Shown piece by piece: positions 20,041 through 62,383 of a DNA stretch of 64,000 bases. The stretch spans positions 24,328,981 through 24,392,980 of the forward strand of contig NC_045147.1 of assembly GCF_008831285.2 (NCBI RefSeq). Reading direction: 5' to 3'. The notes beneath the pieces were generated by a model. It was not told the DNA's origin. It was given only the letters and a program-made list of their open reading frames with translations, and did no database searches. This DNA comes from Nymphaea colorata (Eukaryota; Streptophyta; Magnoliopsida; Nymphaeales; Nymphaeaceae). The position numbers and the translations under genes were made by a program. Positions within the stretch are counted from its first letter, which is position 1. Each line of letters starts with the position of its first letter.

Positions 20041-20246
20041 ATGGCTATGAGCAACAGCAGCCCTTTCGCGAGCGGTCTTGTTCCTCGCTGTCAACATGGC
20101 CTTCATATTTTCCAGAAACATCAGGGTCACAAAATGGCGAAGGATGGCAAGGGAAATTACGTTCACCCCTTTCATAACCGCTGCAGCCTGCTCTTCGTTG
20201 TGTTGGTAGGTGCTACTCTCCCAGGAAGACTTCAGCGTTTCCATGA
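20041..20246 (+). pseudogene. Degenerate short RALF-like gene
   Basis: The block starts ATG GCT ATG, like the intact 57.6 kb gene (ATG GCC ATG). It keeps a recognisable cttcatattttccag, an aaaatggcgaaggatggcaagggaaa segment (family: KMARDGKG) and the family terminus (cgtttccatgag). Between these the frame is shifted and the Y-I-S-Y and cysteine motifs are lost. A family-type 3' block (gccagcttcgggcatg...aatctggagatatgg) follows at 20590-20670. It is best read as the oldest pseudogene of the cluster. The open frame that runs through it is not a credible RALF. Confidence 0.5.
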
Positions 20247-22266
20247 GAACCCCAGTTATTCGTGTATAAATGCTTTTGTCGACATGAATAGAAGTTCCAT
20301 CAGCTCTGTTCCAATTTAAGACATGATCTCAGCTTGGGGTTGGTGTTCGATTTCGGATTTCCGATTCTGAGGTTATTAATTCTTGTCCTATTAATGCTTG
20401 CTTCTTTTGATTTTATGCAACTAATAAGTGCTAGCACGAATAACCTTGAAGGGCTCCCCTGCATCTGATCTGGCAAGGTTTTCACAGAAACCAAAAGAGG
20501 AAAGCTTGGGAAAAAAATTGAAGGGTGCGGCTATTTCCAAATAAAGAAAGGAGAGGGGGGATACGTCTTAGCCTCTTGAGGGACTTTTCTTGTTGCCAGC
20601 TTCGGGCATGTCACGTGGTAATGCTTGTTTAAGGAGCGTGTTTGTGAAAATTAATCTGGAGATATGGTAGGTGAGGACGAATACATGAATTGGCTTTTCG
20701 TCACTAATTTTGGTTAGGGGTCAATAATACAAAATCTTTTAGTTGAGAAGGAGCATTAATATATCAAAATATGTGTACACATGGAGCTTTTATAAAGCTA
20801 GGAAATGGAAGTTCTTGTGTGTGGTTTGGTGTTTGGTGGGGGGTGGACATAGGGATGTTCAACAAGTTGAGCAAACTCATGATCGACTCAAACGCTTAGT
20901 TAAACCCAACTCGAGCTTGACTTGTTGGTTAAATGAGTTGAGTTAATCGATAACTTGAGTTTGTAAACAAATTGAGTTTGAGGTAGATGAACTTGACTCG
21001 ATTAAACTCGTTTACCATTAGTGCCTACTTTTGTAATTTAAAAACCTAAAATGGTATAGATATGAATGAGAAATTTAGCTTTGTTTTATAGTAAGACGGA
21101 TGAGCCATTTTATAATTTAGTGTAAAACATGGTGTAAATACCCTTTTTCTTATGTTGGGGACTTGCATTCTTCATGCTCACAATCCTACCCTTTGACTGT
21201 CTCTTTCTATCTCTTCTCTCAAACCCATGTTTCAGATGAGCAGTGGTAGATATGAAATCGATTCCGGCTAGCTCCATACTTTTCCAGTGACCAGGAAAAC
21301 ACCTTGAGTGTAGTTAACAATTTCCCTATCTGGTTGCCTTCCTCTCTATAGAGTTTAAGGTTTCATCTCTCCATGGTTTCAACCCTTTCTCTTAGGCTTC
21401 GGTTTCATCTACCTCTGGATGATGGTTGTTGCAAGAGGGAAGGGAAAGAGAAAATTGGGGCGGCGAAGAAGATGGTGAAAGGTCTAGTTCATCATAATGG
21501 CTACTTCACCTTGCCGATCACTATGATGTACCCCCTCTCTTACACGTGGCTCCACCACTGTCTTGATGACGTCTACTGCTCGAATTGATGTCCACCCAAT
21601 TTGCACTAACAAGTATTGCGTTTTAAAGTACCAAAATAATTGTAAGACAAAAAATTACACGGAGGCGATCAGGGAATGAGAGAATAACAAACAAGCGCTC
21701 AAATACATAATTTAGGGGTAGATGCCAAGATGTAATCGGTGCTAGCGCAGGCGTCACTAATGTTCAGATCACAATGTTTACTATTTTGTAAGCTTTTTCA
21801 AGTGAGATGTTGGATAGTCATCAATTGTTCGATCTGGTTGCCTCCAAACATGGCAGACAAAAAGCATCCAAACACCCAAATGAGGGATATGACGTGCCAC
21901 ACACATAGCAATATTTTTAAAATAAATGTCATCATTTACTAAAGTTAAAGACCACAATAGGTATTATCATTGATTCTTGTCTACCACCATACCACTAAAA
22001 CAAGCCACTTAAGGGTTGCAGATAGAACGAGTAAAACCCCACCACCTTCCCCATCAGTTCTTGTTTCTTCCACCAATTGAAGAAAAAGAGCCACCATAAT
22101 CACGGGCCACTATTGCTCCCCTCTTTCTCTTTTCATACAAGAAATGGGCCACTACGTGGCTTTAAGCCGTTACGGACGCTGCCAATATAGTCGACAGAAG
22201 CAGGCCACCTTCACTCTATTACTTCCTTTTTCTTTTATTTCTTTCTCTGTACAACAGAGAAATCAA
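20247..22266. other. Intergenic region upstream of canonical RALF
   Basis: It contains the 3' block of the 20.0 kb pseudogene. A low-complexity stretch at about 20870-21015 is rich in gagttg/ctcga-type words, reminiscent of common dispersed plant repeats. Nothing else is assignable. Confidence 0.5.
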
Positions 22267-22674
22267 ATGCGGTGGTGGTGGCTCAACTGCGCTGCTTCGT
22301 CCTTAATGCTGACTCTCCTCTTTGTAGCAATAGGTTTCGGCGAGGCGGTCGCGGGGTTTAGTACTCGGATGGGAGGAGGCTCGAGCTTAGATTCGTCTGG
22401 AGAGAGATGGGGATACAGGCAGTCAAACAATGGGTGCTTCCTGGCCGGTGGTGAGGAGGAGGAGCTCGCGATGGACTCGGAGATCAACAGCAGGATCTTG
22501 GCGGAAACAACGAATAACAGGGACGATTATATCAGCTACAGAGCATTGGAAAAAGGAAGCACCCCATGTTCAGAGAGGGGAGCACCTTACTCACATTGCC
22601 GACCGGAAGCTAAGGAGCATCCTTACAACCGTGGTTGCTCCAGGAACACCGGCTGCTATCGTTCGTCAACGTAG
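22267..22674 (+). CDS. RALF: RALF peptide precursor, near-canonical long type
   Basis: Single-exon, 135 aa. The ATG at 22267 is chosen because it directly begins a signal peptide (MRWWWLN... to about residue 29); the upstream in-frame ATG at 22144 would bury it. A prodomain follows with GCF, an acidic EEEE run and AMDSEINSRILAE, where R-I-L (76-78) fits the subtilase S1P processing motif. The mature peptide has YISY (88-91), PC-SERGAPYSH-C, HPYNRGC-SRNTG-C, so cysteines 101/111 and 124/130 have the canonical spacings of 9, 12 and 5. RALFs are secreted, alkalinise the apoplast and act through FERONIA-family receptor kinases and LRX proteins. The tail YRSST replaces the usual basic end, and the P1 context is SRIL instead of RRIL. 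Confidence 0.95.
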   Translation: MRWWWLNCAASSLMLTLLFVAIGFGEAVAGFSTRMGGGSSLDSSGERWGYRQSNNGCFLAGGEEEELAMDSEINSRILAETTNNRDDYISYRALEKGSTPCSERGAPYSHCRPEAKEHPYNRGCSRNTGCYRSST

Positions 22675-23864
22675 GGGAAGCGCCTTTTCTCTCCCTTTCC
22701 CTCTCGATCTGCCTGCTCCAGAATAGTAAGAGTTGGTCCAAGAGGTGATGTCTGGGTGCGTTAGTAATAATGAGCAAAGCCAGTTTCATTCGAGATTCTT
22801 TCCCTCCTTAGGATCTATTAATCTTAAGAGTGAAGAGAATCGTTGTGAAAAGAAAAATTGAAAAGAAGTGCGATAAATTATAAATGTAAAAAGAGAAAAA
22901 AAGATGTAAAAACCAGTCTCAAGTACATCAGATTTTATTGAATTATTATATAAAACTTGTGCCGGCCAAAATAAAAGGGTGTGTCCGGATGGCGGAGGAA
23001 ATGGTCTTAGGTAAGTCCCTCCTACGGCATGAGAAAGCATTAATTTGTCTTCCAATTCATATGGTTTTCCCAATGTCTTCCGATTCATATGGTTTTCCCA
23101 ATCAAATCTGGATGTCAAATATGTTGAAGACAATTTATGTAAAAAAGAAAGAGATGGTCTGTTAATAAGGTAGGATCAAAATAAAAGGAAATTCAAAATC
23201 GAGTTTTGGGTTTGTCTGACTACTATCCTCCATGTAGCACTGTGGCTCCCGAAAGTCGAGAATTGAGCTATATGAACGCTAGATCTCTACTACACTAACA
23301 GATTGAACTCGATCCATTAATGGTTCCCTTTGATAAATTGTACGAGTAACAGATGCAGTAGTACAATTCTTCCACCACTGAGTGAAAAAGCTTATGCAGC
23401 GATTAGAGTACCTCACTCTAATCCCAGTTAATAAAAATAATTAAAAAATGAGGCATGAAAGTTTCATAAAAATGATTTAAGAAAATAAAGAAAGGGCGTG
23501 CAACAAGATTAAAAAATTACGATGTTTTCCTTTTCTTAAGACCAAGCCAATCTATAACTAATTTTAGCTCATCATGCATAATTCTTGGAGAAGTGCAGAC
23601 CAATTATTTACTTGAAAATAAAGTGTTTGTCTTTTTGGGCATCCTTTTCCTAAAACCAGCCTTCTGTTCATTTTAAGGGTAAACTGAGTCCTGAAAACAC
23701 TTTATTGCTCATTGTTTCACAAAGCCGTCACCATCTCTGATTATTTATATGTCCACATTAACTTATATATCCTTACGAAGGGAGAAAAAAAGGATCCACC
23801 ATCATTGCTTCTGCCTTATTACAAACAAAGGCGAATAAGCATTTGTTACACCAAATTAGTAACA
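22675..23864. other. RALF downstream region plus duplicated block
   Basis: From about 22905 to 23785 this is a diverged copy of 38070-38970 (shared: gtaaaaaccagtctcaag, ggcatgagaaagcattaatt, aacagattgaactcgatcc). Within it, a 24-25 bp unit (ttcatatggttttcccaat...) is tandemly doubled at about 23057-23103, while the 38 kb copy has one. No gene is supported. Confidence 0.6.
22905..23785. repeat. Segmental duplication, copy 1 (pair at 38.07-38.97 kb)
   Basis: Long colinear similarity with 38070-38970 in the same orientation, with scattered substitutions and small indels. Confidence 0.85.
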
Positions 23865-24257
23865 AAATTTAAGAGTTGAAGGTATATTAAGTTTTGGTAT
23901 TAAGATTTTCAAAATATTTAAAAAATGGAACAACAAAAATATTTATGAAAATAAAAAGCGTGTCAATTATGAACAAGATTAAAAATCACAATACATATGT
24001 TTAAAATCTATGAATTTTAGCTCATCATGTACATTCTTGGAAAAGGGCAAACTAATCACATACTTGAAAAGATTTTTTTTCTCTTTCATTTCCTATTCTA
24101 AGAACAGTTTTTTCTTCATTTTGACTGTAAACTAAGTCCTAATTAAAAGTTTTGTCATTGTTTTCCAGAACTATCTTCATATTTTATCATTTATTTATCT
24201 TTAGAAAGGGGCAAAGGGGTTAAGGATTTTGACGTGTTCAAGAGTTTCCGATGTCTT

Positions 24258-24450
24258 TTAGGGGCGTTTGTATGACACCCTTAAAAAAAAACAAGGCTAA
24301 TTTTGAGTGCCTAAAAGAACTTAAGCCAGGTTTTGAGAAAAGCAAGGGTTCAGCAAAACCCAACGTTGCAGTCACCTAAATGTGCATGCAACGAGGTTAA
24401 TTGATTTACCTCTAAAATTTAGTTTGGGTCTGTCATCCAAATGCGTGTAA
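24258..24450. mobile_element. MITE-like element in U1
   Basis: The ends ggggcgtttgtatgacacc and ctgtcatccaaatgcgtg are imperfect inverted repeats (TTTGxATGACA). The same element is at 27728-27940 in U2, so it predates that duplication. Confidence 0.4.
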
Positions 24451-24627
24451 ATAACCTTACCAGATGGTATTGGTATTAATTAATCTAAAAGGAAACTATT
24501 GTTTTAAAATATTATAAAAAGAAAACAGTATTTTGAAAATGCGTCTAGATGATCAGGTCTAGTAAGAAAAGAACTCCATGTAAATTGTAAAGGGGTGGTG
24601 TGTTAGAGAAAGAATTGGCAACAAGCA

Positions 24628-24863
24628 GTGGCAGACCCGAGCCAGTTTGCTCCCGTCATCATTCTGGCCTTGTTGTTGTTCATATTTTCCGGAAGCTCTC
24701 ACGCCAGAAAGTTGGCGAGGGATGTGAAGGCAGGTGCTACGGGGCTCTTCAGCGACCACCTCCTTATGGTCCGCATTGCAGTAACCCATATACGTGCAGC
24801 CCTTGTTTACGCAGTTGTTCACGAGGAGGGCGCCCCCCTGGGCCGAGCGCCCCACTTCCATGA
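24628..24863 (+). pseudogene. Short RALF-like pseudogene (start lost, 10-nt deletion)
   Basis: Compared with the intact 28.1 kb copy, the stretch from the ATG through the first codons is deleted, leaving only GTG at 24628. The signal-peptide core (ILALLLFIFSGSSHARK) remains. A 10-nt deletion after the codons for KAG removes the start of the I-S-Y motif and shifts the frame. The Cys-rich end (PHCSNPYTCSPC...GPSAPLP) survives only in another frame, ending at 24863. The TATA box of the family is also altered (ccatgtaaattg instead of ccatataaatt). Three independent lesions make this a dead copy. Confidence 0.85.
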
Positions 24864-25909
24864 AACGCCACTTTTTAGCAAATAAATGCTTGATTTCCTC
24901 CATGTAAATACTTATTCCATTGCTTTGCTTTGGGATTCGAGAAGAGTAGACTTCTGTCTTTTTAACACTTGCCCTGAAGAGGAGGAAAAAAGTCGAAAGC
25001 GATTGCCGATAACAGCAAGCGTCAGTCTTGGACCCTTGTTTGCAGCTTCAGGCATGCGATGCGAGCTGGTAAATCTTGTTCCGACAGCAGGTTTATGTAA
25101 CAAATCTAGAGATATGTATGATGCCGATGGAGAGACCAAGAGTGGTGGGTGGCATTGTTATCATGTGCATGACGGTACGTCTGTTGCCGCTCTTTTACGA
25201 GCATGGAATATTGCCTCAATAAAAGCTTTCCTTCAAGATGGTATTCCAATTAAAGCTCACTTTTTTACCGCATATATAAAGCAAACCTTGTGCGATTATG
25301 CTTACAGTGACGTTTGGGTATATTTTTTTTTTGAATTTTTGTATGACATGGGTTGAGAATCGGTCTAATCATCTTGTTACCAGAGGGAAGCCATGTTTGG
25401 GACCGTGCAGGCAGCAGCCCCGCACTAGACTTGGGTTAAAATCAAGAACAAAAACATATTGGGCTTCGCAGATTCTATCAGTTAGGCAACAAAACGTTCA
25501 ACTTTGCATTAGTGCAGCTTGTACTTTTCAAATTTTTTGTCGATCAGTGCTCGTAGTTAGAGGAAGCTATGTGGTCAATTAAAGTCCCATGGGAAGCCGA
25601 TTCAACAGCCCAACTATGGGGCTATCATTTTGTTCGCCCTCACCCTCTCACCCATTCTCTCTCCCTCTTATTTATTTATTTATTTTGACAACCATTCTCT
25701 CCACCATACCATAAGATTGGTAGATCGTATAGAAAGAAAGAGATTTGAACATCTATTCGATTGGGGGCCACTGTCATTCATTTTCCAAGTCTCATTTTCG
25801 TTGATTAGATGGAGGTGAAAGGACTTGTTAAACACTAACGTTGAGAATAATTCTAAAAAACTGACAATCCTCTAATTAAGATATGGCGATGATAAGATGT
25901 TGAAAGGCA

Positions 25910-27300
25910 GTAGGATAATTTTCACTCTTAAATTATTTGAAGCAGATTCATAAAACCATAACAAATTGCTGCTGCTGCTGTTAGAAGTCGATCCTCTTGA
26001 GCATTTTCCACCACTTTTCTTTATACTCTAAGCTAGGGCTTTTTTGACTTTTTTTTTTTTTTTTTTTTTTCTTGCTTAGCTACTCGTTTTTTCGTTTTAT
26101 GTTTCTCTTTAACAAATTAATATCATATAGGATGGTGTGTGGTAAGGATGAAAAAGATAACTACTAAATCTCATCCGATTTGAGAGCAGGTTCACTCGTT
26201 TCTCAAGGCCAAAGTTGAAGGTGACAATAATTGTGAAAATACGACAGCCAAGGGAAAACTCCGATCACAGTTGCAAAGACAAGATGATGAAAGGCGGCTA
26301 TGATATTAATTTGGCCTACAAAAACTCCAAGCAAGCTTGCGGTCCGGTCTCCTCACGCCATCTATTCTATTCTATTCTATTAATTAGAACCACAACTAAT
26401 CAAGCATTCATTTATTGTGGAAGATGTGCAGCTCTCCAATACACAAATGGGTTCTTAGTTGAGTTGGCAGTTGGACAATTCAACAGATAAGAATCTAATA
26501 GGATGTGCTCATTATCATATCTCTAAATTCCTATTCGAATAATCATGTCGAAATTTGAATCCAAGTTCACAATTCAAATTCAATTTGAAACCCATTTTTA
26601 GTTTCACAGCCAAATTCAAGTCCAATTTTTAAACCGAAGCTGAAAATGGATGTGTATTAGATGCAAAATGTTTAGAACAATATTAGAATCTTAATCTGAT
26701 CTGATGTCATTTTTTTTTTTTAAATTTTGAATTTAATCCAAATTTTTATTAGATATTAAATTATTTTTCATATCTGAAAATTTTAAAGCAGTTCGGCTAG
26801 ATATCAACCTGAATTACATTTATTGACTTTTCTATTAGCAGTGGACTGTTGATGAAACGCTGATAAAGAAGTGTGTGGTATTTAACATCCATTTGATTTT
26901 TACTCTTTTCCTTTTTACAATTAGATTTTTCATGATAAACAATCTTTCCTATTGAGATTTCCACAGTATCCATTGCTTGATGTCAATTCATCCTTCCATA
27001 ACATTAAGACAGTTTAGTCCTTCTTAATTTGAAACCTTTCATCCAATCTAGGTTAGCTATTAACCCATACATATTATTTGTACATAAAAACATCAGTAAT
27101 GCATTTATTATATTCGACTCGCACACACACATATCGTTCAACAAGAAAAATATAATCTAGGATGGTGGGTGGTTCAAAAGAAAGTACAAAATTTGAGGCT
27201 GACATTCATTTGTTTCTCATGGTCTTGCTGAAGGTGACAATAATTGTGCAAAGCTACAAGATGTTGAAAGGCGGCTAGGATAAAAAAAAGCACCTCTTTC
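25910..27300. repeat. A-block copy 1
   Basis: Member of a five-copy dispersed family (others at about 33.4, 39.1, 45.3 and 50.5 kb). Landmarks: gcagattcataaaaccataac, accacaactaatcaagcatt, gaatccaagttcacaattc, ttgatgaaac. It contains a poly(T) run at about 26047-26070. It is non-coding and leads directly into U2. Confidence 0.85.
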
Positions 27301-28133: not shown

Positions 28134-28412
28134 ATGGGCCTGAGGAAGGGCAGCGCCGTCAGTTTGCGACGGCTCTCTTTCCCCGTGATCTTTCTGGCCT
28201 TGTTGTTGCTCATATTTTCCGGAAGCGCTCACGCCAGAAAGATGGCGAGGGATGTGAAGGCAGGTGGGCCCATTAGCTACCGGAGTCTTCGGCGACCGCC
28301 TCCTTATGGTCCGCATTGCAGTAACCCATATATGTGCGGCCCTTGCCCTTATATACTTGGTTGTTCTTCACGAGGAGGGCCGCCCCTTGGGCCGAGCGCC
28401 CCACTTCCATGA
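28134..28412 (+). CDS. RALFL: Short RALF-like secreted peptide precursor
   Basis: Single-exon, 92 aa. The ATG at 28134 matches the start of its paralogues (MGLR.G). The signal peptide runs to about A34 (LALLLLIFSGSAHA), then RKMARDVKAGGP and ISYRSL (47-52). There is no S1P prodomain, so the mature peptide follows the signal peptide almost directly, as in small RALF-like proteins of other plants. Cysteines are 62, 68, 71 and 77; the last pair (C-PYILG-C) has the canonical RALF second-pair spacing of 5, while the first pair (C-SNPYM-C) does not match the usual 9. The end is GPSAPLP, shared with the other short genes. It is expected to be an apoplastic signal acting on FERONIA-type receptors; this is inferred from family only. 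Confidence 0.85.
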   Translation: MGLRKGSAVSLRRLSFPVIFLALLLLIFSGSAHARKMARDVKAGGPISYRSLRRPPPYGPHCSNPYMCGPCPYILGCSSRGGPPLGPSAPLP

Positions 28413-30600: not shown

Positions 30601-31070
30601 AATTCCTAAAGTTGAAAATAATTCTAAAAATATGACAATCGCTCTAAGTAAGAAGATATGGCGATGATAAGATGTTGAAAGGCGGTTAGGACCTGTGGCC
30701 TATAAACTGGATTCTCAGTCTCTTCAAGCAATGGAGACTTCTTTGGCGTACAGCAGATTTGGATCACACTCATAATGACGTCTTCTTTCGTGGTGGGTGT
30801 TTTGATTTTCCAAAACTATCTTCCTCTTTTTATGTGAAGAGCAAAAAGGGCTTCTTGTACACTAAACGGTTTCTGTAAGCTCGCTCACACAAGTGTGGGT
30901 GATCCCAAGGAAAAACTTATTGGCGGTTAAGGAAAGAAGGAGGGCACTTGCTTTGAAATGATATAAAACAAAAGCAGTGTTTTGAAAATATGCCTATATG
31001 ATCGGGTTTGGTTGGAAAAGAAGTCCTTATAAATGGGTTGTGTGCAGCGAGAGAAGTTAAATAAGGTGGT
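30601..31070. other. Mosaic of repeat fragments upstream of RALF pseudogene
   Basis: It contains gttgaaaggcgg (seen in every A-block), an atttggatcaca segment shared with 35.2 and 54.1 kb, and a decayed RALF promoter (atgatcgggtttgg at about 30999, TATAAAT at 31028-31034). Confidence 0.55.
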
Positions 31071-31150
31071 ATGAGGAACGGCAGTGCCGCCTCTTTGTGA
31101 CCGCTTTAGTTGGCCATCATCATCATCGTCATCATCATCCCGGCTTCCTT
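31071..31150 (+). pseudogene. RALF-like pseudogene fragment with two stops
   Basis: It begins ATGAGGAACGGCAGTGCCGCC, matching MRNGSGA of the 41.2 kb gene and the signal peptides of the others. Where paralogues have CGA and TCG, this copy has TGA and TAG, giving MRNGSAASL*PL*LAIIII. Similarity stops at about 31150, where a degenerate AT-rich repeat begins. The promoter TATA box remains. Confidence 0.8.
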
Positions 31151-31154
31151 ATTT

Positions 31155-39060: not shown

Positions 39061-40445
39061 ATGACCTAGACTTCACCTTCACTTGGGTCTAACCAAAATC
39101 AATTTAGCTTAATTGAATTTCTCTTTGTGTTAAATCAATTTAATTTAATTGAACCACTTTTTGGGTTAAAATTTCATTCATTATTGTTCACAGGCATGTC
39201 AAAATCGTCCCTCTTTTATGTGGGGGTGAAGTTAAAGTCTCACGGGTATATGGCTCACCGTTTTTTATTTAGAAGCCATTTTGGCAACATGAACTGTTTG
39301 TTACTATTCATTTTTAAAAATGATTCATAGAACACTATAACTACCATAGAATATTTTATAAACTTATATCAATCTTTGAAGCAGATTCATAAAACCATAA
39401 CAAATTTCTGTTGTTGCTAGAACTCGATCTACTTGGAGCATTTCCCACCTTTTTTCTTTAGATCCTAAGCTAGGGCTTTCCGAACCTTTTTTTTTTGTAA
39501 CTCCCTCTTCTAGCTACTCGTTTTCTGTTTTTTGTTTTCTCTTTAACAAATTAATAACGTATAGGATGATGGGTCCTTAAGGATGAACAATAAAAAACAA
39601 CAAAATCTAATCCGATTTGAGAGCAGGTTCACTCGTTTCTCAAGGCCAAAGTTGAAGGTGACCATAATTGTGAAAATGTGACAGCCAAGGGAAAACTCCA
39701 ATTACAATTGCAAAGGCAAGATGTTGAAAGGCGGCCATGATAATAATTTGTCCTACAAAAATTGGACGGTCTCTTTCTCTCCCTCTCTCTTTTTCATCTC
39801 TCTCTTATACGGCCCAAAGTCAATTGACTTGCTGCCTATTAGAACCAAAAGATATCCCCATGCTATCTATTAATTAGAACCACAACTAATCAAGCATTTA
39901 TTTATTTATTGTGGAGGATATGTAGCTCCCCAATGCACAAATGCGTTCTTAGTTGACTCGGCAGTTGGACATGTCAACAGATAAGATTCGAATAGAATGT
40001 GCTCATCATCATATCTCAAATTTTCTATTCGAATATAAATAAATAAATGTTTATATCATATCGAAATTTGGATCCAAGTTCACAATTCAAATTCAATTTG
40101 TAACAGATTTTTAGTTTCACAGCCAAATTCAAGTCCAAATTCTAAACCGAACCTGAACCACATAATGATATGTCAAGAATAGATTTGAAAACGGATGGGT
40201 ATTAGATGCAGAATATTCAGAACAAAATTAGAATATGAATCTCATTGAATTTAATCCAATTTTTTATTAGACATTAAATTATGTTTCATATCTGACAATT
40301 TTAAAGCAGTTGGGCTTGATATCAACCTGAATTAGATCTATTGACTTTTATGTTAGCAGTGTACTGTTGATGAAATATTGATCCACTTGATTTTTACTCT
40401 TTTCCTTTCTATCATTAGATTTTTTCCTGATAAACAATCTATTGT
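39061..40445. repeat. A-block copy 3
   Basis: Colinear with A2 and A4, from cttcacttgggtctaacc to cctgataaacaatct. Non-coding. Confidence 0.85.
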
Positions 40446-41231
40446 TTTCAGCTCATCATGCAGATTGTTCGCGCGAGGCAAAAGGAATCGTTTATTTTGA
40501 AAAGTAATTTTTTTTTTGAAATTCCACTTCTAATTGTGTTTTTCTTCGTTTTAGCACCAACATCATCTTTTTAGCTAGCAGAGGTAGGCTGAGTCCAAAA
40601 ACTTTATCATCATTGTCTCTTGCATCCATTTTCTTCTTTTATCTTTAATCCGAATTTATCTTTACAAAGGGCGGAAAAGGCTTTTGACACACTTAACATT
40701 TTCGTCAGCTCTTCTAAGAGTTAAGCACGTTGTTTGTTGTGCCTCTTCACCTGGGATGGTGGTGAAAGTCCGTAACACAAAATGCACCTTTCTTTTAAGA
40801 GTGGACAAAGAAGGGGGAAATTGTTCTGAAATACTGTAAACAAGAAGAGTTTGCTTTCAAAATACACCCATAAGATGAAGACTATTATGAAAAAAAAAAC
40901 CAGCAAGAGAGATTCAATAGTGGGGAGAATGCCATGTTCTTAAAAAGAGTAACAGTTTATTACTGATTCATTAATGAACTTCAAAAGTATTTTATCAAAT
41001 TATTAATCTGCCCCAATTAAAAAATAACCACAAACCCTTCCCATTGCCATACACGGCCTTTCCAAGAACTAAGCTAACCTCTACGAGGACACGAGAAAAG
41101 GTGAAGGAACTAGCTTTTTTTGTTTTTTTTGACGGTAGGGCCTTGGAGCAACCACCGCGGCCTCCAGCATGAATGGGTGGTGGAGGTAGGCAGGCATGGT
41201 TAGCAGCGGGCAAAAATTAATAGAGAGGGAT
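40446..41231 (+). promoter_or_regulatory. Upstream region of RALF-like 41.2 kb gene, module displaced
   Basis: A segment at about 40855-40895 (ttcaaaatacacccataag...attatgaaaa) resembles the sequence that lies about 90 bp upstream of the other short genes, but here it is about 340 bp from the ATG. No TATAAA is present close to the start. This is an inference from weak similarity. Confidence 0.35.
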
Positions 41232-41471
41232 ATGAGGAACGGCAGCGGCGCCTACTGGAGACCGCTCAGATCGTTCGCCATCATCATCCTCGCCTTTTTG
41301 TTGCTCATATTTTCCGGAAACGCGCACGCCAGAAAGTCGGGGAGGCTTGATAAGGGACAATATATAGGCTACGGGTCCCTTACAAGGCCGCCGGCGGCGC
41401 CTCGGAGACAGAGTAGATGTACTGGTACTTGCTATCGTTTCCCTCCTGGGACGAGCGCACCGTTTCCATGA
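41232..41471 (+). CDS. RALFL: Short RALF-like peptide precursor with C-x3-C end
   Basis: Single-exon, 79 aa from the ATG at 41232, which aligns with the paralogue starts (MRNGSG); an in-frame ATG at 41196 would add 12 residues. Signal peptide to about A33 (FLLLIFSGNAHA), then RKSGRLDKGQ and YIGYGSL (44-50). Only two cysteines remain, C63 and C67, in RCTGTCYRF. This matches RCSGTCLRF of the long precursor at 62.0 kb and the same motif at 43.9 kb, not the C-x5-C of the other short genes. The end is PPGTSAPFP. The first RALF disulfide pair is absent. It may be a recombinant between the short and long types. Confidence 0.75.
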   Translation: MRNGSGAYWRPLRSFAIIILAFLLLIFSGNAHARKSGRLDKGQYIGYGSLTRPPAAPRRQSRCTGTCYRFPPGTSAPFP

Positions 41472-43799: not shown

Positions 43800-44252
43800 T
43801 ATATATGCCAAGTTAGGCGAGACATGCCGGGTTGTTGATTAGAGAGAGGAAGAGAGAGAGAGAGATGGGGGTACGCCCCCACACGAATTTGCAGCTTTGT
43901 CTTAAGTTTGGTGGTGCTGTTGCTGGGGGCGGCGGGCTGGGAGGTAGGAGAAGCAGGGGAGGAGTTGACGATGGGGCAGGTGGAGCGGCAGCTGGCTGCA
44001 GGGTGGTTGGAGTGTGGAGGTGATTCGAAGGGCGCCGGGTGCTTTTCCGACGAGGAGGAGTTCGCGCTGGACTCTCAGACCAACCGAATGCTGCAGAGCC
44101 GTAACGCGTACCTCAGTTATCTGGTGCAGAAAAAGGACGGTGTGCCGTGCGTGATCCATGGTCGTTCTTACACCAAATGCGGATCCCCAGCCACCTCTGT
44201 CTTCAAATATACTCGCTGCTCTGGCACCTGCCTTCGTGTTCCCTCACAGTAG
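43800..44252 (+). pseudogene. RALFL: Long divergent RALF precursor without an in-frame start
   Basis: From 43908 the frame matches the intact 62.0 kb precursor nearly throughout: LLLGAAGWEVGEAG, QVERQL, ECGGDSKGAGCFSDEEEF, ALDSQTNRML, AYLSYL. The mature end has four cysteines (VPC, TKC, TRC, GTC) and ends CLRVPSQ. The ATG at 43865 follows a GA-rich leader like that of its paralogue. However, it is 46 nt rather than 48 nt from the shared GTGGTGCTG, so it is out of frame. The only upstream in-frame ATG (43824) meets TGA after four codons. A TATATAT box lies at 43800-43806. The mature part looks conserved, so a non-AUG start, an unseen exon or a sequencing error in this stretch is possible. Confidence 0.65.
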
Positions 44253-48136: not shown

Positions 48137-48370
48137 ATGGGTAGGGGGAACGGCGGCGTTGCCTATTTGGGACGGCTCTCGTTGGCCATCATCATCTTCA
48201 CCGCCTTATTACTCGGAAGCGTCCACGCCAGATTAATGGTGGCGAAGGATGAGAAGCGACAATACATCTCCTACGGGCACCTGAGGCCGGACCCATCACG
48301 ATGCAGTGTCCGGGGTGCTCCTTATTCCCGTTGCCGTCCATTCGGGAAGAAGAGACCACCGTTTCCATGA
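48137..48370 (+). CDS. RALFL: Short RALF-like peptide precursor keeping only first Cys pair
   Basis: Single-exon, 77 aa. Signal peptide to about A31 (IIIFTALLLGSVHA), then RLMVAKDEKRQ and an intact YISYGHL (43-49). The next part is strikingly canonical: RC-SVRGAPYSR-C-RP, with C56 and C66 at the RALF first-pair spacing of 9. It then ends early as FGKKRPPFP, so the NPYxRGCS region and the second cysteine pair are missing. This is the reverse of the 41.2 and 52.0 kb genes. The frame is open and the start, TATA box and signal peptide are intact, so it may be functional. Truncation by a stop or local deletion is the alternative. Confidence 0.8.
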   Translation: MGRGNGGVAYLGRLSLAIIIFTALLLGSVHARLMVAKDEKRQYISYGHLRPDPSRCSVRGAPYSRCRPFGKKRPPFP

Positions 48371-52037: not shown

Positions 52038-52301
52038 ATGGGTCTGAGGAACGGCATTCCCGCCAGTTTGCGACGGCTCTCTTTCCCTGTCATCATTCTG
52101 GCCTACTTGTTGCTCATATTTTTCGGAAGCTCTCACGCCAAAAAGGTGGCGAGGGATGTGAAGGGAGGTGGCCCAGGTAGGTACGTTAGCTACCGGGGTC
52201 TTCGTCCAGGTTTAGGGCATCCTGTTTATCGTTATCCGGGTTGCCGTTATAAAGCTGGTTGTTCACGGGAGCCCCTTGGGCCGAGCACCTCACTTCCATG
52301 A
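52038..52301 (+). CDS. RALFL: Short RALF-like peptide precursor keeping only second Cys pair
   Basis: Single-exon, 87 aa. Close paralogue of the 28.1 kb gene: MGLRNG, LRRLSFPVIILAYLLLIFFG, cleavage near A34, then KKVARDVKGGG. The RALF motif is YVSYRGL (49-55). The middle is rewritten (RPGLGHPVYRYPG), and only C69 and C75 remain, in C-RYKAG-C-S, the canonical second-pair spacing of 5. The end is GPSTSLP, a variant of the shared tail. The coding frame, TATA box and 3' block are intact. Confidence 0.82.
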   Translation: MGLRNGIPASLRRLSFPVIILAYLLLIFFGSSHAKKVARDVKGGGPGRYVSYRGLRPGLGHPVYRYPGCRYKAGCSREPLGPSTSLP

Positions 52302-54060: not shown

Positions 54061-55364
54061 CACCCTTGTCCCCGCTTGGCGTATATGGGCATGTATCTCC
54101 TGGTGGCTGGTTTGGATCACTCTCGCAACAACGTCTTCCATTGATTGCACATCTTTTGTGTGGCGTTTCTAGCGATCGAGAAGGCTTTTTTGCAGCTAAA
54201 TGTTGTTTCTAGCTTTTCCACTATTTTATTTATTTATTTTGATTTTGTCTTTTTAAAACTGTACTGCGGCATCCATTACTTTTAGTTTTGTTTAATGCAA
54301 GTTCCTTTTTTTTTGTCTCTCTCTCTCCCCCTCCCTAAATAAAAGTCGGATGAATGGTTGGAATTTGTAAGGTAGATTTGAGTATGATAAAACTTTGCTA
54401 CGTTTGTATTTGTATTTGAATATGCGATCTCCTATAAAATCTGATATGGTATTTAAGGGCCAAGTACACACGCTACCTCCTACTACCAAAGGTCATGCAT
54501 GTTCTTCCCGGCATATATGGCCTAAAATGGATTCACCTGTTCTCTTAATTATGTTCTTCCGGGTGAAATGCTTGGTGTTAAGTGACTCCCTGCATTTTTT
54601 TTTACTATTGTTTAGAGAAGCTCGTACACTTTTAAAATTTTATTCAGGCTTGACAAGATGGTCCTAAGTCTCATGGGAAATTTACAATCATTTTTTTCTT
54701 TAACACTCTCATGTACTTCGTTTCGTTTTCTTTTCTTGTTTACGAAAGGATTAACATGGTGCATGTTTCCTTTACCCACTGAACGCCATCAGCCTTGAAG
54801 TCCATAAAACATGTCCTTTCATTTATAAAGGTTTTCTACAACGATTTTCAAAGATTGTTCCTAAATAATAGGAGCTATTACAATAGATATTTATCCTTCT
54901 TTATTTATTTGATAACTATGACTATCTTTTGTTTTGAAAGCTGCAGAATCTTCATCAGCAGCGATATCGCTGTCTTGATCTTAGTAAAGAAGTGCGTGGT
55001 CTTGCTAGATTATCACATTCGCATCTCGACTTTTGCTCTTTTCCATTTTATCATTAGATATTTCCATTTTTTTGGAGGTAATACTTGGAAGAAACTACCT
55101 CGCGCTGAGAAACTACCTTAGTTACTATATTGGCTAAGGGCCAAGTGGGTAGGTAAAACAAAACCCAATATCGTAAAATCAATTGATGAACTGGTGTCCA
55201 ATTGGTTCAGAAATTCCGTTTTAATCAAAATGACTAAGCTTGACATGTCAAACGGCCAAAATCCGTTTTCTTTCTTATTCTAATCTGTGAAGACCTTAGG
55301 TTAAAAAAGCAAGCCCCGGTTTAGTTCACTCTTAAGCTAATTAATATGGTTAATTTTGAACAAA
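54061..55364. other. Mosaic of duplicated segments
   Basis: 54110-54560 pairs with 35220-35665; 54640-54740 resembles 36080-36190; 54745-55000 pairs with 37560-37830. No gene is supported. Confidence 0.65.
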
Positions 55365-56175
55365 ATTAGATTCAATACCAGATTCTTCTAATACATGAGA
55401 TTGCTAACTCTTTTCAGAAGTCATGGTGATCGGTTTCTTCTGCGGAAGTTGGATATTATCAAGGCGTACGACAAAATTCGAAGGCCCTTACTACGACAAA
55501 CCCATACTTCTTTGGGATTCTGTGAAGATTGGGTTAGCAAAATCATGCTTGTGTTTAATTTCTCTGCAGCATTTGCCCTTGTTGTCAATAGTAAAGAAGG
55601 TAAGTTCGTTCCTTCTTACAGAGGATTACGTTAGGGAGACCCAAAGTCTCCCATTCTCCACTTTGGTTATTGAAATTCTTTCTAGAATTTTGAGATGGGA
55701 GAGAGAAAGAGAGACTATGAATCTGCCCAAGATAATTGAAATGAAAGTGATCAGTCTAGGACTCTTCTATGCAGATGATATGGTTCTAGTAAGTAATGCT
55801 GATTTGGAGTTCCATTAGATGCAACAAATAGACATTATTTGAATTTGATAATGCCGCTGGTTTAACTATAAATCCCTCTAAGGCTTCAGTTATTTCATTC
55901 CATGTCGAGGAAGGGCAATGTAATTTGTTAACTTAAGAGTTGGGCAGCTCAAGGGCTAATCTTCCTGTCCAATCTCTTGATCTGCCATTATTTGTGGGAA
56001 AGTTGAAAGTGGAGTTTCACGGACCATTGATCGCTAAAATTAACAAGCATTTGGCTTGCTGGAAAAGAAGATTGTTGCCAACAACAGGACGTATTTGTTT
56101 GGTGAAACATATGATTTTTCAAGTTGTTGGTTATTGGATGGCATCTTTCAAGCTTCCATATGAGGTTATTGGATG
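55365..56175 (+). mobile_element. Degenerate LINE (L1-like) reverse-transcriptase remnant
   Basis: Fragments in several frames match plant LINE reverse transcriptase in order: RKLDIIKAYDKI (55443 onwards), LGFCEDWVSKIM, VVNSKEGKF, SYRGLR*GDPKSP (a TAG where Q is expected, 55632-55634), FYADDMVLVSNAD (about 55764-55802) and LPLFVGKLKVEF...HLACWKRRLL...GRICLVKHMIF. Frameshifts and stops make it non-functional, and neither endonuclease nor RNase H is seen. Confidence 0.85.
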
Positions 56176-57540
56176 ACATCCCCAAAAGTTTCTCTCTCTC
56201 TCTCTCTCTCTCTCTGTATATATATATGAAACTTTTGTGTGTGTGTATATATATATATCTATAGTGGATTAAGATTAATGACTCTTAAAGGTACATATAT
56301 TATATTACATCATAAAATTAAATTAATGCATAAAAATCAATGCAATATGTTACCGTGTCGTCGTTAAGTTCTCTTTCATCCTTGAACTTTGTACACTTCT
56401 TATATTTGTATGACGAGCTTAAGCTCGGACTGTCAAGCTGTACATAAACTACTAAAACTGTGGCGTTAAAAGGGCAGGGTTAAAACATGCTCTCCCATCT
56501 TATTTCAATTTGTTGTGGTAAATTTTTTTTACCAAGTTTAACGATCTACATAAGTTATGCATATTAATTCTTTATCAATTGTATATCACACGATGAATGT
56601 GGAAAATTGCGTATGGTCCATATGTCAAAGATGTTGGAGTGTGGAGTTTGATTCATACTTGTTATAGATCGGGTTAATTTCGTAAAGGCATTTATGTAAT
56701 CTTACGTTTTATTTGTACTCTTGATTCTTCTATGGCAGTGAAAAAACCTCTACGTGCAGCAGACCTAAATGTAAAAGTATTCTGTCTTCAAACCACAAGT
56801 AAATCTTTGTACTTTTGTTTGCTTTTTCTTCTCCGATTTTTTTCTCTTGGTTTTTCATGAGAGGGTGTGAGAGCTAGCTCGTTCATAACAAAAGATGCCT
56901 ATAAAAATCTAGTCGTCGTGCAGCAGGCAAGTCGTCCTGAAGCCACCAGCGAGTCATTGAAATGAACTTTAGAGAGAGAGAAAGAGAATAAAGGGCGAAT
57001 TTAACGCCTCATATATAGAGAATGAATGTTCAGAAAGTGGTTTTCCAATTATCTTTTTCCTCCCACTCTAGTATAGCCTAGCTACTTTTTTTTTTTTTTT
57101 AAACAACTATATCTCCACTTAAAAAATAAATTATGAGCTCTAAGGAGGAAGTGACTTAAAGAGGCTTGGAAATCTAATTTCCCATTTTGCGACCTGTTTA
57201 GCTCATTTTCCAAACTCTCATTTTCATTGATTAAATTGGATGCTCTCTCTGATCTGCTGCTCCGGTGCCACGATGACATGCTATACCGGTCGTCTCGCAT
57301 GTGCTTCCACGCATACATTGCTCAAGTATAATGATCCCCACATTAATTATGTTCAAATCGATCGTAGAAACAAATGACAAAAGTGCTTAAGGCGGTTGAT
57401 TTTGAGCGCCTCCTTTCTTGACCTCTTCCTTTCCCTCCACGTCTTCAACTCTTCCACCTTCAATCTAGGATCTCTGTCAGTTTCACAACAAAAAGGGTTT
57501 ACTGCCATTGCCTCACAATAAACCACTCAGATTCATTTTA
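56176..57540. other. Intergenic, partly duplicated
   Basis: It begins with (CT)n and (TA)n microsatellites (about 56190-56260). 56265-56390, 56540-56620 and 56725-56830 pair with 48.75-50.53 kb. No gene is supported. Confidence 0.6.
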
Positions 57541-57616
57541 AGGAGCTCTTTATAAATGGGTGGTGTTACAGCAAGAGATTGGCACCAAGCAGCGGCAGAA
57601 ACTGATTCAGATTAGG
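57541..57616 (+). promoter_or_regulatory. Core promoter of RALF-like 57.6 kb gene
   Basis: TATAAAT at 57551-57557, 66 bp before the ATG, followed by gggtggtgtta-agca-gagattggca as in the other short genes. The upstream GATC motif is not recognisable here. Confidence 0.65.
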
Positions 57617-57904
57617 ATGGCCATGGGGAACCGTAGCGCCGCCGATTTGCGACCGCTCTCGTTCGCCATCATCATCCTGGCCGTCTTGTTGCTCGTATTT
57701 TCCGGAAGCGCTCAGGCCAGAAAGATGGCGAGGGATGGGAAGGGAGAAGGAAACATTTCCTACAGGGCCCTTCCCAAAGACCCAGTACATGCTCCTCCCA
57801 TTCCGTATTGCCGTCAAAATCCTTATCATCCTCAATGTCGACGTTGCAGTTACGTTTACGGCTGTTCAATTCCCCCTGCTGGGAAGAGCGCCCCACTTCC
57901 ATGA
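57617..57904 (+). CDS. RALFL: Short RALF-like peptide precursor, four cysteines
   Basis: Single-exon, 95 aa from the ATG at 57617, which aligns with paralogue starts; a longer frame upstream crosses the leader. Signal peptide to about A34 (ILAVLLLVFSGSAQA), then RKMARDGKGEG and NISYRAL (46-52). Cysteines are 65, 74, 77 and 83: YC-RQNPYHPQ-C-RR-C-SYVYG-C-S. The last pair has the canonical spacing of 5 and QNPY recalls the NPYxRGCS block, but the first pair spacing (8) and the CRRC arrangement are unusual. The end is GKSAPLP. This is the most RALF-like of the short genes, with a clear TATA box. Confidence 0.87.
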   Translation: MAMGNRSAADLRPLSFAIIILAVLLLVFSGSAQARKMARDGKGEGNISYRALPKDPVHAPPIPYCRQNPYHPQCRRCSYVYGCSIPPAGKSAPLP

Positions 57905-60900
57905 AACAAGGCCAGTACTCTTTACCATCACTTGGACTCGAGAATTGTACCATTTTCGAGTCGCCGTGGCTTTCCCGAGGTTAGTCTTGTTATTCTAATG
58001 ATATATATATGTTTGCTCTTATGAATTTCATGCAGATAATAAGCAGTTGCAGAGTTAACCTTCCCCAGGTTAGTTGGTATGCGGGTGCAAGTGTGTTAAT
58101 GAGTGTGGCATTTGTTCTAGGGCAACTGTATTTCCTCGTAGAGGTACATATATATATTATCATATCGTTGCATAGAAATCACATGCATAACGTCTCCTGC
58201 AATCACATGTATCTGGCGACTTCTCAATAGGTTCTTTCTGGTTGTGATGCAATCGTATTCCGTGAAACTCCTAACGGTCATGGGTATGTAGGCCCTCAAC
58301 CACTTTATTGGGCAAATGATCACAAGATATTTACAAACAAAAAGTTAAAATCCCTCCCAAAGTCGATGCAAATTTACATCACAGATTCAGAGATGGGGTC
58401 CGGCCGGTTGTTGTTCTGAATGATCAGGCCCCCATTCCTTTTACACACAGGCACCGGTAAACACCTTCTGTCTTGCAGCTCGGCTTCTATCAAAGGGCAA
58501 GGGAACAAAGCCCTCTCATTTCATTGAATATTACTCTTCGCGACCAGTTTTCCCATCTCATTCTGTTTGCTTGAACTACAACGACCTCAGCTCCAACTTC
58601 TGCAATCGCTTCCAAACACCTGGATTTATGCACATGAAACAAACCTTGTGCAGTTATATGTACTTCAAAATGGACCTGCCTGCACATTCCTTCAAAAATG
58701 AACATGGAGATCCGTTCCAAACTTCTGTGTCACAGTCGCATGAAATATCACAACAAAATCGAATTTATAAACCGTGCATCACATATTCTCGGCTAAATCG
58801 GTTGTAATTACACACCCCACCAAAAAAAAAAAAGAACAATTACCTTTTTATAAAAATAAATGAAAATTGTAAAATTGAATCGAATTAGAATGGGCCCAGA
58901 CAGGATGATTTGGGCAACAATGGTGCAAACAATCCTTGGATGCCCTTTCTTTCATTCAAGGATACTACAGATAATTTCATAATTAATTCAACTCTGAAAA
59001 TGAAACATTTGCGAGTCTTATGCAAATGCGATGTTCAATATATATGTCGAAGAACCTGAATATAAACACAAAAAAGATTGCTGTTACTGTACAGGGAGGA
59101 TCGGTTTATGGAAATTTGAAGTAAAAACCCCGACATTTTGGGGATAGAAGATATAAATACCATTCAATGACAGAAAACTACAAAACTTTTTACTCCATGC
59201 ATGTCCCGTTTTTGCTGAGCACGAAGATTGCGCTAGTGTGCTTAGTTTTATTAAAAGCCTATTCCGTGTATGAGACAAGACTTATGTTTAGCTATTATGG
59301 TTTTCTTAAGGGCAATTTCCTTTTCTTACAAAACAAACCATGGGAAATTGTGAGCGCTAAACGAGGCCTGATAGCTGGAGAAGGTTGGTGTGGAGAAAGA
59401 GAATGCACCCTGATTGGTTTTGTTTATATTGCCACAAGCGGGGAGCAGGATCGTTTGAAGAAACGAGAATTTCAGTGTGCCAAACGGTACTATATTTGCA
59501 GAAACAGGAAGGAGGATGCAGATCACATCTTTCTTTTAAGTGTAATCTTGCAGTGAAAGTGTGAAAACATAGTGTGTCTCAGAGATTGAAGAAAAGGAGA
59601 AGAGCCCATTCGAGCATTATGAATCTACTCCTCTAATTGAGACTGATTAAATTGTCACTTTTGCAGCCATGTCCTAGGTATTCTTGTGCAATTTAAAATA
59701 TTTATAATAGTAAGATATGTTAAAAGAAGCAACCTGGTCCCCCCCAATTTCCAACTTATCACATCCTTTGTTTCTGATATCTGTTCTTAGGAGACCCGGA
59801 AATACAAACACGCCCAATTTACAAAAATTTACGAGCAACTGAATCTGCATAACCGCCGGACATGGCAATGGCCATCGAGAAGATCTTACATCACACAACA
59901 AAAATGCTTGAATTGATTGCCTGCGAATTTTCTTTCAATAATAAGAATGAACTTAGTTCAATTTCCAATCTAGATCTAAATCAAAATAGAAAACATTTGG
60001 TAAAGTTGTCTCGATTAAATAAAATGTTTTCTGCGATATGGAAGTCCAACGGCGCCGCCCTGATAATTGGGTAAACAAGTGAAAAGGATTGGAGCATGCC
60101 GTTCACATGGGGTTGAGATATTATGTCGCCGACAGGTTGAGGGACGGCTGCTTAGGGATCATGACAGCTGTTCAGCGTATTAAAAACAACAGTTTTTTTT
60201 TCCTTTTTCTTCTTTTTTTTGGCAGAAACCGAGCATGTGATCATCTCTTCTTTGTCCAGTACATCTATATAGTCGAAACGAAGAATTTTACTGCGGGAAA
60301 AAATAACATTTTGATCTATTATGATCAAGGAGGTCTGTTGGAAATTTTTCACATGCAGCTATCAAACTATTAACCAAGCCAAACGCAACCAATGGTTTCC
60401 GTCACACATTAAGGGCGTAATTGCTCATTTCAGTGTGTGACGTTGGATTCAGCTGGCTTTTCATGTAGGTCAAAATCTTCTACCAATAAGGAATAAAATC
60501 AAGGTCAAATCCCCTTCATAGAATGCTGTCACAGGGGAGTTCATGAAATGGGCTTATGCAAGACATCTTTATCTGCATAATGCAGTTTATGTTTTTGCTG
60601 TCTGAAGATACGCCTTCAGAAAATCGACATGGAAAGAAATAACGACAAGATTATCAAGAAATTGCAGATTGATACTAATAGTTCATGCTCGGCAGCAATT
60701 CCTACAGAGCGTGAACTATATACTTGGAGAAAACATTTGGACACTAGTTTGAGGAAAACCAGATCGTAGGGCAGTTGCAGATAAAGCAAAGGTTATGGAG
60801 GAGGAGAGTGAGAGACATTACCAGGAGGAAGAGGCAACAGCGGTCGTTTTTGTGTGCCCATCCTCAACCTCTGCTGAAGCCATCCCTCTGCTATGCTGAA

Positions 60901-61996
60901 GCGATCGTCATCAACACTGCCCATCCACCGCCAGCCCCTTTCCTTTCCATCGTCTTCCATCCATGTCGTCACACTGCAGTACCCATATGAGAACCAAGGT
61001 TTTTGGTAACCATCACCAACAAATCGCCGCTGCCCCCAAAACAGCAGCATTTTGGGTGAAAAAAGAACCCCCACCCAGCTTCTGCAAAGCCTGGCCGAGC
61101 GACGTTTCGGAGGCAAAACGACGTCGCAACTCCATAATTTCATCGTAACAAACAAAAATGGCGTGCATAGAAGTTCAATTAAGATTCATCTTAAACAAAG
61201 TTAGTAATAAGATTCATCTTAAACAAAGTTAGTAATAAATGCTGTGTTCATCACCAAAAATTTTTAAAAATTGAAGTCGGAGGACCTTTTATAGGTCCTT
61301 ATTAGCATATCGTTATGAGTAGTGTTTCAAAGATTAGGAGTTTGATAATCAAATCGAGCAAGGTGCGGATGCAGTGAAGCCGTCGACGATTCCACAGTTC
61401 AACGAAAGCACTCGTGATAATTGTTTTATTCACAAATACTAATAAAAGAACACAGAAGTGGTTTTTTGGAAAAAAGAAATTGAATTACTGAGAATCCAAA
61501 GAAAATAACATTTAATCAACATTCAACGTTGCTCTCTTAATCACGAAAGTGAATTTTGGTGATTTAAACTTCGAGTTCTTTTTCTTTGAAAAATAGAGCA
61601 GGCAGTAACCAATTCTTCCCAAGAAAATTGTCTTCTCTCGATTGATATACTTTGTGGGAAAACAGATAAAAGCGGTAAATGTAGGTTTTACTGCTTTTAC
61701 TCATCTGTTAGCATAGCATAAATGCTTAGTACGTCCAGATACATGTCACGGAGTAGTGGAGCTCCTGAGTTAATTTTCTGCCGGAGCCTTTATGTGAAAG
61801 AGTAAATACAGCGCTGCGTGTGGGATCCATCCATCAATATCAATGGCTGTGCTGTTATTGGAGGAGACTGGGGAGGACAGCTCTCTCCCCATCTTCGATT
61901 GATTTAACGCCAAGCGGCCATCAGGGTTGTCCGGCAGTGAAGACCATCCCCCCATCAGAACACAGAGAGAGAGAGAGAGAGAAGCTGCAGGAGGAG
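57905..61996. other. Long intergenic region, no gene seen
   Basis: 58020-58060 has the catgcagataataagcag segment also found downstream of the 28.1 and 52.0 kb genes. A 28-bp tandem repeat lies at 61181-61236. Open frames here have no recognisable protein features. The final 30 bp before 61997 is GA-rich leader. Confidence 0.5.
61181..61236. repeat. 28-bp tandem duplication
   Basis: aagattcatcttaaacaaag with ttagtaat is repeated twice head to tail, period 28. Confidence 0.92.
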
Positions 61997-62383
61997 ATGG
62001 GGGAATTGCATCCCGGAAGGGTTTTCGGTTTTGTTCCCCTGCTGGTGGTGCTGTTGCTCGGGGCGGCGGGCTGGGAGGTAGGAGAAGCAGGGGGGGAGTT
62101 GATGATGGGGCAGGTGGAGCGGCAGCTCTCTGCAGGGTTGTTGGAGTGTGGAGGTGATTCGAAGGGCGCCGGGTGCTTTTCCGATGAGGAGGAGTTCGCG
62201 CTGGACTCTGAAACCAACCGAATGCTGCAGAGCGGTGCCGCGTACCTCAGCAATCTGCTGCTGAAAAAGGATGGTGTGCCATGCCGGATCCCTGGTCGTT
62301 CTTACACCAGCTGCGGATCCCCAGCCAGGTCTGTCTACAAATATAATCGCTGCTCTGGCACCTGCCTTCGTTTTAACATATAG
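61997..62383 (+). CDS. RALFL: Long divergent RALF peptide precursor
   Basis: Single-exon, 128 aa. The ATG follows a GA-rich leader. Signal peptide at about 10-25 (FGFVPLLVVLLLGAAG), then a prodomain with QVERQL, ECGGDSKGAGCFSDEEEF and ALDSETNRMLQS, where R-M-L (75-77) fits an S1P site. The mature part has YLSN in place of YISY (83-86), VPC-RIPGRSYTS-C and YNRC-SGT-C-LRFNI: cysteines 96, 106, 119 and 123 with spacings of 9, 12 and 3 (the last is normally 5). The family assignment is firm. The altered Y-I-S-Y and shortened second loop suggest changed receptor binding, which is inference. It is paralogous to the 43.9 kb locus, including its 3' flank. Confidence 0.9.
   Translation: MGELHPGRVFGFVPLLVVLLLGAAGWEVGEAGGELMMGQVERQLSAGLLECGGDSKGAGCFSDEEEFALDSETNRMLQSGAAYLSNLLLKKDGVPCRIPGRSYTSCGSPARSVYKYNRCSGTCLRFNI

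Follow-up and report, generated by a model that had tools for sequence, protein, structure and literature searches.

A co-directional RALF cluster in Nymphaea colorata with a local short, propeptide-free type and a shifted cysteine framework

What are the short RALF-like genes that stand among long RALF precursors on one contig of Nymphaea colorata: working secreted peptides of a reduced type, or the remains of duplicated genes? The stretch of DNA that raises this question, referred to here as the window, consists of 64,000 nucleotides (nt) of contig NC_045147.1 (positions 24,328,981 to 24,392,980 of the forward strand); the contig, which carries the cluster, is called C10 below. A sequence-only reading of the window had counted eleven RALF loci, all on the + strand. 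Searches with the Pfam RALF family (PF05498; gathering cut-off 22 bits) and with nhmmer reproduced that number as three long copies, five open short loci and three short-type pseudogenes, and open reading frames (ORFs) were present on the + strand at all of the window positions it had named. We conclude that the RALF cluster is real, that it is expanded and co-directional, and that it includes a local short type and a shifted cysteine framework. For the origin and use of the short type we favor, at a probability of roughly one half, the reading that birth-and-death duplication made propeptide-free short RALFs, which are freed by signal peptidase alone and may engage LLG-FERONIA-type receptors but not the cell-wall LRX proteins.

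The five open short loci, named S28, S41, S48, S52 and S57 by their kb positions in the window, all lie on the + strand and encode 77-95 amino acids (aa). S28 (28134-28412; 92 aa) has four cysteines at spacing 5-2-5, the motif PISY and the tail GPSAPLP, and S57 (57617-57904; 95 aa) has four at spacing 8-2-5, with NISY and the tail GKSAPLP. Two cysteines, the second pair only, are left in S52 (52038-52301; 87 aa; YVSY), at spacing 5. S41 (41232-41471) encodes 79 aa from the homologous ATG, with a further in-frame ATG upstream at 41196, and carries two cysteines at spacing 3, YIGY and the tail GTSAPFP. S48 (48137-48370; 77 aa), the one locus of the five with an exact YISY, keeps the canonical first cysteine pair only (spacing 9). 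The cysteine count is even, four or two, in all five.

Around these varied cores the loci are much alike. Each has a strongly hydrophobic signal peptide (hydropathy maximum 3.1-3.8), and in every case the predicted signal-peptidase cut is preceded by Ala at -1, with Ala, Val or Ser at -3. Directly after the cut stand RKMA (S28, S57), RKSG (S41), RLMV (S48) or KKVA (S52), at the place where the long relatives have RRxL; RRxL and the acidic propeptide are absent from all five. A YISY-like motif is retained throughout, and in the alignment it is followed by a variable core and then by a tail whose last residues, before a stop codon common to the shorts, are LP or FP. The sequence-only reading had called this tail conserved, which holds for about six residues ending in [L/F]P-stop; in S48 and S52 the tail is altered. 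Over the 24 bases up to the common stop (28389-28412 and the homologous stops), the four short-locus pairs that were compared are 0.92-1.00 identical. Upstream, TATA[AT]A occurs 47-66 bases before the ATG in four of the five. Common to the shorts are promoter-side DNA, the signal peptide, the YISY-like motif and the short tail at the C-terminus.

Failure of RALF profiles on every short locus, which would have told against the sequence-only reading, did not occur. The Pfam model recognizes S48 (29.5 bits); S28, S41 (searched as the ORF from 41196), S52 and S57 have no RALF match at E up to 10, but profiles built from neighboring long genes do match these four. None of the five shorts exceeded any NCBIfam cut-off. 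In a search of the PDB, the mature S28 peptide found no match at E up to 10 and S48 found only RALF4, at E 0.87; the long precursor at 22144 matched RALF4 at E 3.3e-10.

Three kinds of long gene served for comparison. The canonical cysteine spacing, 9-(11 to 13)-5, is seen in the long precursor at 22144-22674 (+; Pfam RALF 66.6 bits; spacing 9-12-5), which has YISY and, at the site-1 protease (S1P) position, SRIL, and also in four of the six open genes upstream of the window on C10 and in the C5 and C3 genes. Two upstream long genes, at C10:24.202 and 24.205 Mb, have spacings of 5-2-5 and 7-2-5, in the form C-x(5-7)-C-x2-C-x5-C; they pass Pfam RALF at 22.9 and 29.3 bits and lie 150-185 kb upstream of S28, S52 and S57. 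The long precursor at 61997-62383 (+; 128 aa; Pfam 36.4 bits) is spaced 9-12-3, with YLSN for YISY and NRML at the S1P position, and the spacing-3 pair of S41 is common to this 62-kb gene and to L008, a long gene just beyond the right edge of the window.

Profile scores were judged against 1000 shuffles of each sequence and, for cores taken alone, also against 1000 shuffles with the cysteines held fixed; the profiles were chosen and built after the similarities had been seen, and the scores are to be read in that light. The upstream profile, made from three upstream long-type copies of which one is broken, scored the mature peptides of S28, S52, S57 and S48 at 22.5, 20.5, 21.8 and 13.7 bits (0/1000 shuffles each) and that of S41 at 7.5 bits (2/1000). 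With the canonical profile, S48 reached 41.2, S57 15.4 and S41 10.1 bits (0/1000 each), S52 6.9 bits (6/1000) and S28 merely 0.9 bits (96/1000), the last of which counts against descent from RALF genes. When cores were taken alone, the upstream profile found those of S28 (20.0 bits), S52 (16.7) and S57 (18.2), each at 0/1000 free and 0/1000 cysteine-fixed shuffles, and did not find those of S41 (521/1000) or S48 (275/1000). The canonical profile found the S48 core (22.9 bits; 0/1000 free, 0/1000 cysteine-fixed) and missed those of S28 (240/1000) and S41 (546/1000). A third profile, of the spacing-3 class (the 62-kb and 44-kb copies and L008), gave the S41 core 14.3 bits (0/1000 free, 1/1000 cysteine-fixed) and the S48 core 10.8 bits (0 and 7 of 1000), and did not find the other three. 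In addition, tblastn of S28 against the fetched loci, with composition correction off, matched the upstream long copy near L001:3027 at E 1.2e-9. By these scores, the cores of S28 and S57 and the reduced core of S52 are related to the upstream long precursors with the shifted cysteine layout, and the five shorts appear to descend from RALF genes: S28, S52 and S57 by way of the upstream longs, S48 by way of the canonical type and S41 by way of the 62-kb class. AlphaFold2 gave a mean predicted local distance difference test (pLDDT) score of 56.0 for mature S57 and 52.7 for a canonical C5 control, which is not interpretable for either.

Read against the NPY that precedes the canonical third cysteine, the shifted layout would have lost Cys1, kept Cys2 and gained a new cysteine between NPY and Cys3; this assignment was made by eye, and automatic alignment does not place every row in this way. 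None of the eight readable peptides of the window has the Tyr-Tyr pair, and neither have L004b, the two upstream longs and L008; the L002, L003, L004a, C5 and C3 copies have it.

Under the reading that we favor, signal peptidase would cut after AHA, VHA, SHA or AQA and free the short peptide directly, bypassing S1P. The YISY end would then dock on an LLG-type co-receptor and nucleate FERONIA-type receptor complexes. The altered core, with no Tyr-Tyr pair and with lost or shifted disulfides, would prevent tight binding to LRX and the cell wall, and the shorts might for this reason diffuse freely and serve as weak agonists, or as competitors, of the long RALFs. The receptor mechanism is proposed by analogy with precedents described in reviews. 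Docking of the YISY end on LLG has been described (PMC12034098, PMC12527185, PMC10442051, PMC12786044); residues 1-17 of RALF23, as a fragment, promote the binding of FER to LLG1, to a lesser degree than the whole peptide does (PMC12034098), and nematode RALFs act through FER although their first cysteine pair is missing (PMC12527185). LRX association requires a Tyr pair (PMC12527185), and for LRX to be bound tightly, folding directed by the disulfides is key (PMC10442051). An S1P site is lacking in AtRALF8 and in RALF6/7/16/36/37, and these peptides act via FER or FER/ANJ/HERK1 (PMC10442051). A RALF with two cysteines is already known (PMC12034098).

A number of observations weigh against this reading, some of them from the same literature. 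RALF4 binds LLG3 mainly via its Cys2-Cys4 region, RALF1 and RALF23 need their C-terminal part for interaction with FER, and AtRALF1 needs its second disulfide, which S48 does not have, for immune suppression (PMC10442051). A few RALFs without the RALF23-like N-terminus do not bind LLG2, and the split follows the S1P site (PMC12034098). In the window itself, no TATA[AT]A was found before S41. Purifying selection was not shown by codon maximum likelihood: omega is about 1, at 1.05 (p 0.86) from the signal peptide to YISY and 1.24 (p 0.38) with the tail included. Pairwise dN/dS by NG86 ranges from 0.58 to 0.96 over the ten short pairs, and the bootstrap fraction with dN>=dS is at or below 0.05 in just three of them. 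Lastly, the argument from frame retention, given below, becomes weak if indels are left out of the simulation on which it draws: multiplied together, the five chances of retention then come to 4e-3, or about 0.23 when any five of eight loci may be open.

The strongest rival holds that the short loci are duplicates that died recently or are dying, their open frames functionless leftovers. The omega of about 1 speaks for it, and it has further points on its side: in S28/S52, the closest pair, coding identity up to YISY (0.89 in gap-free columns) is no higher than in the flanks (0.90-0.92), breakage has already reached three of the eight short loci and one long copy, and cysteines have been lost from the cores. 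Against it stands the state of the frames. Start, signal peptide, frame and stop are kept in five of the eight short loci, despite 33 short gaps in the S28/S52 flanks, 23 of them not multiples of three. We simulated neutral retention on assumed branch lengths (d 0.05 for S28 and S52, 0.1 for the others), with indels at half their rate in the flanks. The chance of retention per locus averaged 0.21 for d=0.05 and 0.06 for d=0.1; for the five together the product is about 9e-6, or about 5e-4 allowing any five of eight. The even cysteine number and signal-peptidase residues in all five, and the TATA box in four, likewise speak against decay. Frame retention suggests, but does not prove, constraint on the shorts and a function for them, and we regard the view of them as dying duplicates as unlikely, if the most serious of the alternatives. 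The core of S28/S52 had also been considered as a hypervariable outlier. That idea was dropped, with 169 of 1615 comparison windows elsewhere in the duplicated segment equally divergent; pairwise gap counts and the MAFFT alignment of the cores are unreliable at the codon level.

A second alternative, compatible with our reading, is that the shorts are members of RALF-related clade IV, already known for short RALFs without propeptide, and are nothing new. Their length and their lack of an acidic region and of RRxL fit this well, as clade IV members average 88 aa and many are without the second cysteine (PMC5258720). YISY, however, is found in only 3 of 264 members of that clade (PMC5258720), as against a YISY-like motif in all five shorts (strict YISY in S48), and the nearest relatives that this genome yielded for the shorts are long genes, of which two have RRLL. 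We consider it rather doubtful that clade IV is the whole account. Very improbable is the third alternative, by which the shorts would be parts of longer spliced genes, either first exons or fragments left by annotation: introns were judged here from genomic sequence, but the shorts have a homologous stop codon and tail, searches of the window gave no RALF match outside the listed loci, and RALF genes are mostly intronless.

Within the reading of the shorts as propeptide-free RALFs, the pairing of a uniform exterior with different cores allows a more specific and quite tentative idea, which we hold to be on the unlikely side. One secreted shell (promoter, signal peptide, YISY and stop-proximal tail) would carry three cysteine cores, old recombination having produced a propeptide-free, wall-untethered version of each RALF class. 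The candidate pairings are S48 with 22144 for the canonical core, S28, S57 and S52 with the longs at C10:24.202 and 24.205 Mb for the shifted core, and S41 with the 62-kb long gene and its downstream neighbor for C-x3-C. Recent gene conversion between long and short cores was considered and is not supported for five pairs (S48/22144; S28, S57 and S52 against the upstream longs; S41/62 kb): nucleotide identity is 0.44-0.64 and synonymous divergence is saturated or 1.53, so that any such exchange would be old.

The remaining copies in the window have the look of a family in turnover. The sequence-only reading had seen a co-directional array of secreted-peptide genes, with open, decayed and truncated copies inside duplicated DNA, as birth-and-death evolution, and the duplicated DNA found here (about 71-96% identical in pieces of at least 400 bases) is consistent with that. 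Its count of three long precursors needs one amendment. Three loci do match Pfam RALF, but the copy at 43865-44252 (+; 33 bits) carries a 5' frameshift, and the open long genes number two. In that copy the ATG at 43865 does not share the frame of the signal peptide, and an in-frame ATG occurs only at 43971, after the hydrophobic stretch, so that the open part (43971-44252) has no signal peptide; it is probably a pseudogene. Its protein is 81% identical to that of 61997, with a dN/dS of 0.64 for the pair. At 22144 the real start is probably an internal Met, since the hydrophobic stretch begins only at residue 54.

A short-type DNA profile for nhmmer, built from six short-type loci, found eight loci in the window: its own six members, 19988-20250 (E 1.7e-19) and 30998-31131 (E 2.2e-19). 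It gave no match in the reversed window or in nine 10-kb flanking loci. The sequence-only reading had suggested that the short type may be lineage-specific; within this genome, searches for it in which only the best candidates were scored found nothing outside the window at E < 0.1. The locus at 19988-20250 (+) is a pseudogene: the start is still there in its ORF (20041-20319), but a hydrophobic signal peptide (hydropathy maximum 0.49, against 3.1-3.8 in the five open shorts) and YISY are missing. Pfam RALF does not recognize it at E up to 10. In a second pseudogene (24549-24876, +; 270.6 bits as a profile member) the start region is deleted and the frame is broken between signal peptide and core, with tblastn pieces falling in two frames. 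The third, at 30998-31131 (+), is a 5'-only remnant (model positions 2-160). When the window apart from nine listed loci was searched by tblastn for more remnants of RALF genes (low complexity masked, E up to 0.05), none was found, nor was any in the reversed control, but this search also missed the two weak pseudogenes that nhmmer recovered.

The cluster reaches beyond the window, which holds about half of it. The RALF model has 17 matches in the genome, nine of them at C10:24.206-24.391 Mb, all on the + strand, and eight elsewhere. The genome also fits N. colorata by its GH3 genes: main-exon places number 12 on C3 (four broken or partial ones left out), 7 on C8 (one split gene included, broken or partial places left out) and 9 on other contigs, and for N. 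colorata 27 GH3 genes are reported, 12 of them on chr3 and 7 on chr8 (PMC13149400). Over C10:24.199-24.394 Mb there are 23 loci, 14 of them open: six upstream, two long and five short in the window, and one downstream. Reading of the flanks and searches with local queries placed eleven upstream RALF-type loci or remnants at C10:24.1998-24.2369 Mb. Six are open from ATG to stop (near 24201805, 24205371, 24218xxx, 24221xxx, 24234xxx and 24236xxx); the other five, at 24199778, 24208147, 24209698, 24212898-24213294 and 24226169, are broken or fragments. Two of the upstream long-type copies, L001:844-1059 and L001:9213-9400, are near-identical and have the same broken frame, with a stop after the signal peptide and the propeptide in another frame, so a broken copy may itself have been duplicated. 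Between 24.249 and 24.309 Mb of C10 no place was listed by the genome-wide RALF-type searches, which alone covered that interval. About 0.8 kb beyond the right edge of the window, L008:839-1312 (C10:24393819-24394292) is a long RALF-like gene with 14.9 bits to Pfam RALF, under the cut-off, a cysteine spacing of 5-12-3 and VIRN instead of YISY.

Among the duplicated DNA is a 575-base block (39866-40440, +) that has five further copies in the window, near 26376, 34238, 46166, 47151 (partial) and 50680, with 73-96% identity. Outside the window only short pieces of it match, mostly from block positions 162-352, and a small transposable element is perhaps contained in it. Elsewhere in the window are a Band_7/SPFH (prohibitin-like) exon at 5437-5718 (-; Pfam 34.4 bits) and a Rad9 exon at 14070-14408 (+; 55.2 bits).

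The signaling role of RALFs, through LLG and FER, and their cell-wall role, with LRX and pectin, are hard to separate. If our reading is true, this natural array in an early-diverging angiosperm would offer ready-made separation-of-function variants: they have lost the propeptide and retained the YISY end, and their cysteine core is variously shifted, halved or kept. The shifted layout, which is found here in long and short genes, also suggests a disulfide framework of RALFs that is less constant than it is usually drawn. We found no account of this cluster or of the shifted cysteine layout in the literature searched, whose coverage leaves out most subscription journals, and the accessible parts of papers naming both Nymphaea colorata and RALF describe no RALF genes of this species.

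How, then, do the shorts compare with known systems? They are like the canonical RALF1, RALF23 and RALF4 precursors, whose layout is that of 22144 and of four of the six open upstream genes on C10, in having a signal peptide, a YISY-like motif and a cysteine-bearing C-terminal half. They differ from them in having no propeptide or RRxL, in a cysteine spacing of 5-2-5, 8-2-5 or a single pair as opposed to 9-12-5, in the added short tail and in the missing Tyr-Tyr pair. With RALF-related clade IV of Campbell and Turner (2017), described as short and mostly without acidic region and RRxL (PMC5258720), they have in common their length, the lack of these two elements and variable cysteines. They would depart from it in the kept YISY-like motif, exact in S48 alone, and they have long genes as the nearest relatives found in the genome, and in S28 and S57 it would be Cys1, not Cys2, that was lost, with a new cysteine present. 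C-terminal extensions restricted to particular lineages have been noted in RALFs before (PMC5258720). Finally, S52 and S41 resemble the RALF mimics of nematodes and Fusarium in keeping a YISY-like motif and the second cysteine pair only (PMC10442051, PMC12527185). This likeness is one of layout, set against the descriptions in reviews, and the shorts of the window, unlike the nematode and fungal mimics, are encoded by a plant in a tandem cluster.

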